Source: a virus. From it: DNA of 48,046 bases. Position 1 is the first letter of the stretch. Each line of letters opens with the position of its first letter. A program made the translations under genes and the position numbers. Below the pieces are notes generated by a model. That model searched no databases and was not told the DNA's origin. It was given only the letters and a program-made list of their open reading frames with translations. Below are positions 276-3,974 of this stretch, in pieces. The stretch is taken from positions 1 to 48,046 of the IMG/VR virus record IMGVR_UViG_3300003702_000002; one strand, 5' to 3'.

Positions 276-1934
276 CTACATATTCATCCAGACATTAGGT
301 GTTTCTTCATACTGTTTATCGAACACACCTGCAGTAAACCTATCTAATTCCTCATCCATTAACCTATCTTTCCGCACATCCACCTCTTTATCTGCATCAG
401 TAGCCATCTGTTCGACCCAGTATCCTACTGCCATCTGCAAAGCATCCAATCTATCATCATGAATCAGAGCACCTTTATCCTTTGTAATTCTAGTCATTTG
501 GTGAAACAGCATGTATTTAGCTTGACTTTCACTAGGATAGTGTCTAACAGTCTGTATATCCTTCTCTATCACTTGTGGATCTATAACTAGCCTATGTTGA
601 TTCATAACAGGTTCAAGAGTATCTATAATTCTTCTCTCTTTCTGTATATTAGATCTAACTTCTTCCATAGTAACATTATAAATCTTATTTAGAATAGGTT
701 TCCACAGTTCCATAAACATCCCATCACCAAAGTTAGACTCTATCAATACCAAATTAACTTTATTACGTTTGGCAATGACTGATAGTGCTTGTAGGTTATC
801 TTGTTTATAGCCTCCTTGTAGTCCTCCACATTCAGTTAGATACAGAATACCATTCAACATCTTTACAACTGCATAGCCTGTCTCATCTTTACCTCTACCA
901 CTAGGGTCGACTGACAAAACACTACCAGTATATTCCAACCAATCACCTATTTTCTTTTGAGGAGAGTAATAACCATCACCCGGAAGACCCACATTAGGTA
1001 GATCAGTTAATTTATGTTCAGGATCTCTAGACCACACAGGTTTTTCAGGTGCTTTATCTCCATCTAGGGACATTACTATCAAATCACTAAGTTTAAGAGG
1101 ATACCTATCGGCATCACTAAGTGAAGTATCGAGTTGAAACTGTAGATTAAATCCTGATCTACCATAGGAAAGTTCTCTCTCAGTAAGATCATCATCATCA
1201 AATCTCAAAGGATCAGTAGGTTCTCCAGTTTTACCTTTCTTATTTCTTATAAAAGGAGATAATCTATTTTCATATCTAACAATCTGTTCATCGGTAGGGT
1301 ATCTACTAGGCCATATTTGTACTGTATAACCTCTCTCAGGAAGTGTTTCATATAGAGACATCTCTGTCTGAGGAGTTCCTAGATAGATAATTGATCCATC
1401 AGGTTTAAGTATTGCATCAAACTCTTTAACTGCTTCTGATAACTTATCTCTCATTGATTGAGTCATTGAGTTATTAGGAACCTCCACATCATCTGCAACG
1501 ATAAGATCAGCCCTACTACCTGCAAGTTGACCTGTGATACCTACACTTTTAACTGAGGGAGAATGTGAAGCTAATGCCGGCCCTACATCGAATGATACTT
1601 TTGATTGTCTCTGACCTTCAGAGGATCTAAGGTGTTGCAGGATAGGTATTTCGTGTATGAGTCTCTGTGTAAAGGTTGAGAAGTCATCTGACCTAACTTT
1701 GGAAGCACTTACAACTAGAACTTTCATTTGAGGATCAATAAGGAGGGTATGACAAACGAAGGCAGATGTGATATAGCTTTTCCCCACTCCACGAAAAGCT
1801 TCTATCACTCCACGTTTAGGTTTGTTCTGTAGGAATGTTGCAATGTCGTATTGCACAGGGGTAGGATCAGGTAGGTGCAGATGTTTCCAACAGATAAAAA
1901 GGAAGTTACGAAAGTCCTTCAACTTATTATCCAT
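276..1934 (-). CDS. terL: Terminase large subunit (T7 gp19-like DNA maturase B)
   Basis: This is the ATPase-nuclease motor subunit that docks on the portal, cuts concatemeric DNA and drives packaging. The 552-residue protein has an N-terminal Walker A region with EAFRGVGKS at about residues 45-53, as in T7 gp19. LIVADDVEVPN at about 144-154 is the Walker B segment. The C-terminal RNase H-like nuclease begins around VLSVDPSGRGKDETGYAV, which contains the first catalytic Asp, and a later DDRLDALQMAV segment supplies another acid. Length is close to T7 gp19 (586). The ATG at 1934 shares one base with the TAA of a 15-codon ORF (TAATG) and has no good Shine-Dalgarno sequence of its own. This suggests translation coupled to the upstream ORFs. 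It is the last gene of the late region. Confidence 0.96.
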   Translation of the reverse strand: MDNKLKDFRNFLFICWKHLHLPDPTPVQYDIATFLQNKPKRGVIEAFRGVGKSYITSAFVCHTLLIDPQMKVLVVSASKVRSDDFSTFTQRLIHEIPILQHLRSSEGQRQSKVSFDVGPALASHSPSVKSVGITGQLAGSRADLIVADDVEVPNNSMTQSMRDKLSEAVKEFDAILKPDGSIIYLGTPQTEMSLYETLPERGYTVQIWPSRYPTDEQIVRYENRLSPFIRNKKGKTGEPTDPLRFDDDDLTERELSYGRSGFNLQFQLDTSLSDADRYPLKLSDLIVMSLDGDKAPEKPVWSRDPEHKLTDLPNVGLPGDGYYSPQKKIGDWLEYTGSVLSVDPSGRGKDETGYAVVKMLNGILYLTECGGLQGGYKQDNLQALSVIAKRNKVNLVLIESNFGDGMFMELWKPILNKIYNVTMEEVRSNIQKERRIIDTLEPVMNQHRLVIDPQVIEKDIQTVRHYPSESQAKYMLFHQMTRITKDKGALIHDDRLDALQMAVGYWVEQMATDADKEVDVRKDRLMDEELDRFTAGVFDKQYEETPNVWMNM

Positions 1935-1981
1935 TATTCACATCTACATGGATTACATTTACAATCTTTACATTTACACAT
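1934..1981 (-). CDS. 15-residue Cys-rich micro-ORF overlapping the TerL start
   Basis: Reading the minus strand from ATG at 1981 gives MCKCKDCKCNPCRCE and a TAA whose last base is the A of the terL ATG. Six of the 15 residues are Cys, in CxC-xx-CxC-xx-CxC spacing with interspersed Lys. This resembles a minimal metallothionein or metal-cluster ligand. It starts 10 nt after the TAG of the preceding 84-aa Cys-rich gene. There is no strong ribosome site, so translation would depend on coupling in both directions. A leader role for terL is the alternative. The evidence is composition, the exact overlap and the neighbouring Fe-S gene. I know of no homologue. Confidence 0.5.
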   Translation of the reverse strand: MCKCKDCKCNPCRCE

Positions 1982-1991
1982 ATTATTTTTT

Positions 1992-2246
1992 CTATTTAAG
2001 AAAATAACCAATACATAATTTACAATCAAACATAGGGTCTTCACTCAATACATGAGAAATTCTTACCCTTTCTCTTCCTTTTTTTACCTTCCTTTTTTCG
2101 TTTATACATGTAGGACATTCTCCTGTCTCCGTATTTACAGGACATCCTGCTATAGCTTTACATACTCTTATAATAATATATTCATTACTGAAAGAGTAGT
2201 AAGGTGTAATTAATAATATAATTATAATTAATAATAGATATTTCAT
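1992..2246 (-). CDS. Exported cysteine-rich small protein, unknown function
   Basis: This 84-residue protein has a clear N-terminal signal or anchor (MKYLLLIIIILLITPYYSFS). The Lys- and Arg-rich remainder carries six Cys at about 29, 35, 44, 47, 75 and 78, including two CxxC pairs (CPTC and CKLC). The pattern suggests a disulfide-bonded or metal-binding domain facing the periplasm. An AGGAAGG ribosome site lies 7 nt before the ATG. A phage-type promoter lies 42 nt upstream, so this gene heads a short late unit with the 15-aa Cys peptide and terL. T7 places its Rz-like gene between TerS and TerL, so a lysis role (spanin-like) is possible. The Cys content is unusual for that. Family not recognised. 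Confidence 0.7.
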   Translation of the reverse strand: MKYLLLIIIILLITPYYSFSNEYIIIRVCKAIAGCPVNTETGECPTCINEKRKVKKGRERVRISHVLSEDPMFDCKLCIGYFLK

Positions 2247-2323: not shown

Positions 2324-2695
2324 TCAATGACTAAGGTAATCTGCAATAGCAGCCTTAATCGCATCTTCTGCAAGGACAGAACAATGAATTTTTACTGGAG
2401 GTAATGACAGTTCTTTCACTATATCAGTATTCCTAATTGTCTTAGCTTCCTCTATTGTTCTACCTTTAATCCATTCAGTTGCAAGAGAAGATGATGCTAT
2501 TGCAGAACCACATCCGAAAGTCTTGAATTTAGCATCCACTATCTTATTATCTTTCACCATAATTTGAAGCTTCATTACATCACCACATTCAGGTGCGCCC
2601 ACAAGCCCAGTACCGACAGAGACACTAGCACTATCCATGCTACCAATATTCCTTGGTTTTTCATAATGTTCTATTACTTTCTCTGAATACGCCAT
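2324..2695 (-). CDS. iscU: IscU-type Fe-S cluster assembly scaffold protein
   Basis: In bacteria IscU receives sulfur from IscS, builds a [2Fe-2S] cluster and passes it to clients with HscA/HscB help. This 123-residue copy looks fully functional. The three ligand Cys are C37 (PECGD), C62 (FGCGSAIASSSLATEW) and C105 (KIHCS), D39 follows C37, and the LPPVK site for HscA is intact at 98-102. It is full-length and closely resembles proteobacterial and mitochondrial IscU rather than the NifU or SufU families. No other isc gene is present, so it would have to work with host IscS and HscA. It sits in the late region between TerS and TerL, just after a 34-aa membrane ORF. It is an auxiliary host-derived gene, and its position beside Cys-rich ORFs is striking. 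Confidence 0.97.
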   Translation of the reverse strand: MAYSEKVIEHYEKPRNIGSMDSASVSVGTGLVGAPECGDVMKLQIMVKDNKIVDAKFKTFGCGSAIASSSLATEWIKGRTIEEAKTIRNTDIVKELSLPPVKIHCSVLAEDAIKAAIADYLSH

Positions 2696-2807: not shown

Positions 2808-3737
2808 TCAAGTCCTATAAAGGACAACTTCATAGAAAGAATCAGGATTATTAGATATTGATACTTCTTCCATTAATGGACTATCTGGATGATACTGTAT
2901 TATTGATGCAGTATATCCTGCTGCTCTGGCTATATCTGAAAAGTCTTTGGAAGGTAGGAAGGAAGTTAATTCATCTAGAGTTAATTGACCTCTCCTATCA
3001 GGATGTTGGAATTTCCATCTCCATGTCTCTTCTGATTGTTCAGGTTTCTGACCTGGCAAGGGATTAAAAGGATCATTAGACAGAAACATATCACCATCTT
3101 TTGTAATTTTAGCTTTTCTAATTATCGAGTCTTCAGCATTATTACCTACTTCCAATAATTTTCTATTAAAATCAAAAGTAGTTAGCCCTCTCTGATCTTT
3201 ATCTAACTTACTATCATTATTCTTTATTAGTTTTCTAGTTGCAGATAGGATTTTTTCATAATCTTTAGAATCTCGTACAAAGGTTGAATCCTTTTTAAAG
3301 GTAACTAAGTTCAGACCATTTTTAGGTGCAATATGTACTTGTACAATTGAAGGTTGTTTATTATTTGTCCTTCTAGAGTTTTTAATTTCCTGTAATTCAG
3401 TAAGTCTAACTTCTTCCAATTCAGGAATTGTATTTCTATAAGATAGGAATGCATCATCAAGATTAGTACTAAAGAACATCCCTGTTCCTTCTGAGTAATT
3501 ATTAGTCTTAAAGGATGGAAGTTCTTCAAACTGATCTTCTTTTTTCCTAGCTATACCTTTATAGAAGTTTATTGGCATAGGCATTACCTTACCATTAAAA
3601 TAAGATAATGTTCTAGTTGTATCTACGATTAGATTACCATTTCCCCATATATCTAAGTCTTGTCTAGTGAAGAAAGGTTCCTTCATTATTCTGTTTTCTT
3701 CTTGCAATTGATACATTTCATAGTTTTGTTCAGGCAT
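2808..3737 (-). CDS. Unknown 309-aa protein, possible ADP-ribosyltransferase-like fold
   Basis: The family is not recognised with confidence. The protein is soluble and charged with no signal or membrane span. Residues about 57-61 (FYKGI) followed by GTGMFFSTNLDDAFLSY at about 84-100 resemble the arrangement of mono-ADP-ribosyltransferases, where an aromatic-[KR]-G strand is followed by an STS-like strand. The C-terminus (DSFYEVVLYRT) could supply a late acidic strand, but a canonical ExE motif is not seen. It lies between terS and the iscU unit with 3 nt to terS, so it is expressed late. A late or virion-injected effector is an inference. A structural or DNA-packaging accessory is equally possible. 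Confidence 0.65.
   Translation of the reverse strand: MPEQNYEMYQLQEENRIMKEPFFTRQDLDIWGNGNLIVDTTRTLSYFNGKVMPMPINFYKGIARKKEDQFEELPSFKTNNYSEGTGMFFSTNLDDAFLSYRNTIPELEEVRLTELQEIKNSRRTNNKQPSIVQVHIAPKNGLNLVTFKKDSTFVRDSKDYEKILSATRKLIKNNDSKLDKDQRGLTTFDFNRKLLEVGNNAEDSIIRKAKITKDGDMFLSNDPFNPLPGQKPEQSEETWRWKFQHPDRRGQLTLDELTSFLPSKDFSDIARAAGYTASIIQYHPDSPLMEEVSISNNPDSFYEVVLYRT
2815..2831 (-). promoter_or_regulatory. Weak phage-promoter-like site before the iscU unit
   Basis: The minus strand reads GTTGTCCTTTATAGGAC. It shares CCTTTATAG with the site at 31,510 but lacks the upstream AACTC block. It lies within the last codons of the 309-aa gene (codons for VVLYRT), so coincidence cannot be excluded. Confidence 0.25.
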
Positions 3738-3740
3738 AGT

Positions 3741-3974
3741 TTAACAATCGAAAGAGGTTTTACCTTTTGCTATATCTTTCTCACTAGGAAAAGGCATACT
3801 TTCCATTAGTTGTTGGAGAGCATTATCATTAACTGGTAGAGCAGTTATATCATTATCTTTGAGGAACCTAACTGCTACTGCAAGGTCAGCAGGTTTAGCT
3901 TCACCTGACTCTATCTTAGCTAGTAATTCATCTGCTACTGCTTCATATAGTGTACTAAGTTTATTTGTTTCCAT
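3741..3974 (-). CDS. terS: Terminase small subunit (T7 gp18-like)
   Basis: The 77-residue protein carries the signature of short T7-group small terminases: an N-terminal helix, then LLAKIESGEAKPADLAVAVRFL-type sequence (about 17-38) and KDNDI, as in many marine T7-like DNA maturase A proteins. It recognises concatemer ends and stimulates TerL. Length is close to T7 gp18 (89). The ATG directly follows the TAA of a small lipoprotein gene (TAAATG), and the gene ends 3 nt before the unknown 309-aa gene. Unlike T7, TerS and TerL are separated by about 1.8 kb of other genes here. Confidence 0.85.
   Translation of the reverse strand: METNKLSTLYEAVADELLAKIESGEAKPADLAVAVRFLKDNDITALPVNDNALQQLMESMPFPSEKDIAKGKTSFDC

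Follow-up and report, generated by a model that had tools for sequence, protein, structure and literature searches.

A fifteen-residue, cysteine-rich peptide gene linked to iscU in marine phages is a candidate metal-binding microgene

Results

A 15-codon ORF lies at the start of the large terminase gene

The window, by which we mean the whole 48,046-nucleotide stretch of DNA analysed here, is a contig of a T7-like phage from an IMG/VR virus record. Its GC content is 36%, and its late genes lie on the minus strand. The genes recognised in it include those for both terminase subunits (terL and terS), for a DNA polymerase of family A and for an RNA polymerase of the T7 type. The ORF that adjoins terL (Table 1) encodes MCKCKDCKCNPCRCE, with six Cys in 15 residues, and the sequence, length and position reported in a preliminary description of this DNA were all confirmed, as was the overlap of its TAA with the terL ATG by one base (TAATG). 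The spacing of the cysteines had also been described as far from random, and the pattern C-x-C-x2-C-x-C-x2-C-x-C is indeed found at a single place in the 48-kb window and did not arise in any of 100 shuffles that preserved dinucleotides. An alternative, GTG-started reading would give a product of 36 aa (1934–2044). Since the additional N-terminal part of this longer reading is unconserved among relatives, translation is likely to start at the ATG at 1981.

Table 1. Positions of the features discussed, in the window and in related stretches.
Feature	Stretch	Position	Strand	Remarks
terL, large terminase subunit (T7-like DNA maturase B)	Window	276–1934	−	phrog_38, PF22530
CxC micropeptide ORF	Window	1934–1981	−	15 codons + TAA, MCKCKDCKCNPCRCE; conserved homologues
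84-aa protein	Window	1992–2246	−	Apparent signal sequence and conserved Cys (CK..GC...CPTC...CxxC); 3' end 10 nt before peptide ATG
Phage IscU / NifU_N Fe-S scaffold	Window	2324–2695	−	PF01592 (E=9e-50), phrog_8429; two genes upstream of peptide
309-aa protein	Window	2808–3737	−	Between terS and iscU; no family match
terS, small terminase subunit	Window	3741–3974	−	PF11123, phrog_891
Small ORF with CxxC...PCxC	L033	1689–1784
Small ORF with CxxC...PCxC	L034	656–751
Small ORF with CxxC...PCxC	L047	2946–3041
Small ORF with CxxC...PCxC	L030	121–246
Small ORFs with CxxC...PCxC	L035–L038			Shortly upstream of terL
Protein with weak Sdh_cyt match	L304	429–1340	−	Prevotella sp. UBA6994

Two proteins encoded near the peptide gene matched no family. 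The 84-aa protein, for which Pfam and PHROGs profile searches returned nothing, occupies roughly the position of the T7 spanin genes. Its cysteines are invariant among relatives (C....GC...CPTC), and the C-terminal CxxC is found in the window, L001, L002, L007, L011, L014 and L048 and is missing from others. The 309-aa protein is 33–81% identical in relatives, against 84–99% for terS and terL.

The cysteine codons are under selection

Relatives were retrieved by TerL and by IscU, with the Cys pattern left unused, and the scan tolerated motifs with as few as four of the six cysteines. At homologous places the six-Cys motif was either complete or absent. The preliminary description had proposed asking whether the Cys codons are kept under synonymous change, and this is the case for all 144 of 144 codons in 24 distinct sequences (120 TGT and 24 TGC, with no other codon). 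Differences at first and second codon positions amount to 0.000 at the Cys columns compared with 0.395 at the other columns (the Pro column being excluded), and the third positions of the Cys codons differ by 0.274 on average. The residues between the cysteines vary freely, with Lys, Glu, Asp, Asn, Thr, Ser and others being found. A Shine-Dalgarno-like site (GGAG/AGGA-like) precedes the peptide ATG in eight of the nine relatives checked, against a background of 0.18; in the window itself this site is poor. Because the Cys codons are all kept while other residues vary, and such sites stand before the ORF in relatives, the ORF is very probably a translated gene with selected cysteines. A dense CxC/CxxC array under selection (six Cys in 15 residues across the 24 sequences) is also what would be expected of a metallothionein in the broad sense.

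The six-Cys core recurs in phages and cells and matches no described family

In pattern scans, small ORFs with the core CxCxxCxC[DN]PCxC turned up in many marine phages and in archaeal, Chloroflexi and other genomes; the abundance seen in these broad scans is a lower bound. The core also forms the C-terminal tail of larger proteins, for example of a protein kinase, of an ABC ATPase and of a protein from Prevotella that weakly matches a membrane subunit of succinate dehydrogenase (Sdh_cyt). The longer peptides, of the form CxNPxCxCxxCxCDPCxC, and the CxC tails of marine phages, archaea, Chloroflexi and Prevotella share the six-Cys core with the 15-mer, but differ from it in being 20–60 aa long or in being joined to a larger protein, and their representatives are nameless in the family libraries searched.

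In the Prevotella protein (L304, Table 1) the Sdh_cyt match (E=0.0004) is below the cut-off and the C-terminal tail consists of repeated CKCEDCKCDPCKC units; similar tails were seen in several Prevotella contigs. Small ORFs with CPHCLSDPC[AS]CDDNI-like or ECDVCGNTPCSC stretches occur in the same genome region of phages of the 75–78% TerL group (Table 1), and their CxxC...PCxC arrangement is distinct from the peptide motif.

Ten representative peptides (the 36-aa reading and nine related ones) gave no Pfam, NCBIfam or PHROGs match at E<=1, although such models score peptides of this length poorly. The same caveat applies to the bacterial metallothionein family PF02069 (Metallothio_Pro), which was not matched up to E=1. 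There was likewise no Pfam match to the A-type carrier family PF01521 (Fe-S_biosyn fold, three conserved Cys), for whose fold the 15-mer is too short, though it might act in a similar way. Two tested peptides matched no PDB chain at E<=10, and tblastn with two related peptides against 50,697 phage records returned nothing convincing, with the caveat that BLAST masks short Cys-rich queries. Among isolated phages the motif is absent from the terL regions of HTVC031P, HTVC019P and S45-C18 and from the iscU region of phage C48C1, and no report of it in phages was found in the open-access papers searched.

Association with the terminase gene is not conserved

The peptide gene precedes terL, as in the window, in L001–L005, L048 and L011–L013, with TAG-TAA-ATG replacing the one-base overlap in L001. 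No peptide precedes terL in L006 and L007, whose TerL is 97% identical, and the ORF is missing from terL relatives of 92–97% identity; in L008–L010, L015–L017 and L019–L024 terL is present and the peptide is absent at that place. Whole-record scans detected one copy in each carrier and none anywhere in a relative of 39 kb whose TerL is 89% identical. Elsewhere the peptide precedes terS (L014, L026/L027) or, in unrelated phages, a different terminase-like gene (L087, L067, L216) or other genes, and in L056 and L071 it lies in an apparent portal–scaffold region, the names of these genes in unrelated phages having been read from translations rather than based on family searches.

The preliminary description had noted that terL has no good ribosome site and had suggested that the peptide may set terminase translation, possibly as a Cys- or metal-responsive leader. 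It is true that terL has no Shine-Dalgarno-like site, but this is not distinctive, since 22 of the 42 window starts checked have none and the terL genes of the peptide-less L006 and L007 have none either. The peptide–terL junction showed no unusual RNA folding (z=0.35) and no credible Rfam match. A leader of terL should hold a constant position before that gene, whereas the peptide is missing there in close relatives and stands before other genes elsewhere. Neither suggestion is therefore supported. The description had stated that its reading would be refuted by relatives in which the ORF is broken or the Cys are not conserved while terL and its overlap remain; this is seen in part, in the relatives that keep terL without the peptide.

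We judge it unlikely, indeed very unlikely, that translation of the peptide senses Cys or metal and tunes the downstream gene, here terL. The TAATG overlap and the tight junctions with other downstream genes would suit such a role, and there is precedent for translated metal-sensing ORFs in CutF, which lies upstream of cutO in Rhodobacter, is exported and acts together with an mRNA stem-loop (PMC9973294). Both are small ORFs, metal-binding (putatively so here), that adjoin another gene, which in the case of CutF is regulated. However, CutF works differently: the phage peptide lacks a signal sequence, its locus shows no unusual stem-loop, and the gene downstream of it varies. In addition, the genome encodes a T7-type RNA polymerase, leaving little room for host-type attenuation.

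The possibility that the sequence matters solely as a reinitiation route into terL, whose missing Shine-Dalgarno site and shared TAATG would fit this, is extremely improbable. Six conserved cysteines would be unneeded for such a purpose, terL copes without the peptide in L006 and L007, and L001 has no overlap; as the cysteines are also conserved at positions away from terL, this reading is largely refuted. In the window's own lineage it is possible that ribosomes that finish the peptide reinitiate at terL. Given the absence of the peptide from phages with near-identical TerL, its place before other genes and the lack of unusual folding at the junction, comparison of these sequences indicates that the terminase link is incidental and that the conserved function of the peptide is something other than a leader or coupling role specific to terL.

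The peptide gene is linked to iscU

The 15-residue form occurs in several settings, of which the commonest places it right at the 3' end of a phage iscU gene, where the peptide codons ATG TGT run into the iscU stop. The overlap is 8 nt, or 14 nt in a variant, and was seen at at least 14 distinct loci, where several different genes lie downstream. L014 and L092, contigs seemingly free of IscU, begin within the last codons of iscU. Across the wider motif, IscU lay within 3 kb of 20 of the 75 distinct gene-like CxC motifs compared with none of the 68 chance-match control loci from the same collection (p=7e-7), the two classes being separated by a composition rule that made no use of IscU and was drawn up after the results of an earlier control grouping. 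For the shortest CxC forms IscU was nearby in 12 of 25. Within the group of phages with at least 87% TerL identity the peptide is present in 6/6 IscU-positive lineages and 2/9 IscU-negative ones (p=0.007, from hand-made counts). Genetic linkage to iscU, as an Fe-S partner would have, is thus found both in this proximity and in the overlaps, with the proviso that the loci share ancestry, so that the p-values overstate their independence.

In a tree of IscU sequences the window's IscU and its terL-adjacent kin fall in one neighbourhood with IscU of the overlap type, many forks being unresolved. Longer peptides with the same core lie 0.07–2.7 kb from IscU in other phages, and on this tree that arrangement is gained or lost several times over. 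The simplest history would be that one iscU-CxC cassette moved among phage backbones, with a gene now lying between its parts in the window's lineage; the overlap cassette may be of single origin.

We also considered a programmed frameshift that would fuse IscU to a CxC tail, and set this aside because the IscU-overlap loci have an in-frame ATG. In L230 and L247 the proximal peptide ATG is missing and another ATG lies seven codons earlier.

IscU is not the only partner of the peptide, since 55 of the 75 gene-like CxC motifs have no IscU nearby and the 15-mer itself occurs without IscU in L026/L027 and L011–L013. Conversely, 53 of 78 lineages counted with phage IscU have no peptide. Phage IscU itself was detected in at least 588 IMG/VR stretches as against 17 of 50,697 phage records, several of those being doubtful; with so few matches, isolates miss it almost wholly.

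Where a CxC ORF overlaps iscU, 1 of 11 loci has an A-type carrier gene nearby, compared with 36 of 53 IscU loci that have no CxC (p=4e-4), and in L254, L267–L269 and L291 the carrier gene fills the slot directly after iscU. This would be consistent with an Fe-S carrier role, in which phage IscU passes iron or a cluster to the peptide, and the peptide stands in for the A-type carrier (IscA/ErpA/SufA-like) that other IscU phages encode. We regard that role as rather unlikely. Phage type is a confounder here, and the mutual exclusion is no more than suggestive: the CxC-overlap loci are mostly podovirus-like with short flanks, and the others include T4-like phages. Moreover, the motif is common without IscU, and L112/L217 has both the peptide and an A-type carrier.

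Discussion

We favour, with moderate confidence, the view that this ORF is a genuine microgene that moves independently. Its product would be a minimal metallothionein-like peptide of the cytoplasm, built around the core CxCxxCxCxPCxC, and in the window's phage group the gene would belong to an iscU-CxC cassette that has come to lie beside terL here. That the gene is real, that its cysteines are under selection and that it is linked to iscU are the steps supported by sequence. The suggestion in the preliminary description of a minimal metal-binding peptide is supported indirectly, by the strict conservation of the Cys codons and the recurrence of the motif in many unrelated phages and cells. 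A metallothionein-like reading is favoured because a 15-residue peptide with six thiolates, spaced as CxC and CxPC, shows a metal-binding pattern of the metallothionein type. Thiolate metal clusters typically have such dense CxC spacing together with CxPC, which also argues against a thiol role other than metal binding. Such a role might be that of a redox buffer, of a carrier bringing persulphide to IscU or of a small component of the virion, produced along with the late genes. It would suit the late-operon site among packaging and lysis genes, and the IscU linkage would fit a sulphur carrier, but we consider it quite unlikely.

As a metallothionein-like peptide it would be translated within the late operon, and its six thiolates could hold either iron or soft metal (Zn(II)/Cu(I)), in the latter case one or two ions. 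The peptide might then buffer metal, pass it on or shield the scaffold from thiophilic metals at a time of infection when phage IscU would raise Fe-S assembly. The link to IscU suggests buffering of soft metals that would otherwise be toxic to the scaffold, or the supply or acceptance of iron or clusters; the peptide probably serves Fe-S assembly or metal buffering in infection.

Bacterial metallothioneins (SmtA/BmtA, PF02069; MymT) are likewise small cytosolic Cys-rich peptides with CxC and CxxC spacing, and metallothioneins bind Zn(II), Cu(I) and Cd(II) via thiolates spaced in this way (PMC7558416). In contrast to their length of about 50 residues the phage peptide has 15, is too short for a zinc-finger fold and has no Pfam or NCBIfam match at E=1. 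Phage-encoded IscU and A-type carriers are known as auxiliary metabolic genes in marine phages (Nishimura et al., 2017, PMC5332604; HMO-2011-type phages, PMC9038755), and the window iscU belongs to the same IscU/NifU_N family. The relevant passages of these two papers treat scaffold and carrier genes.

A selected microgene of metal-binding type that is widespread in marine phages appears to be unannotated because gene callers pass over ORFs so short. Were the peptide, as seems unlikely, a 15-residue Fe-S or iron carrier for phage IscU in place of the A-type carrier, it would be among the smallest known metal-trafficking proteins and would make Fe-S biogenesis branch in a way specific to phages. 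From the linkage to IscU it seems that phages with Fe-S assembly genes also carry a metal-handling peptide, making it a candidate partner for these auxiliary genes.
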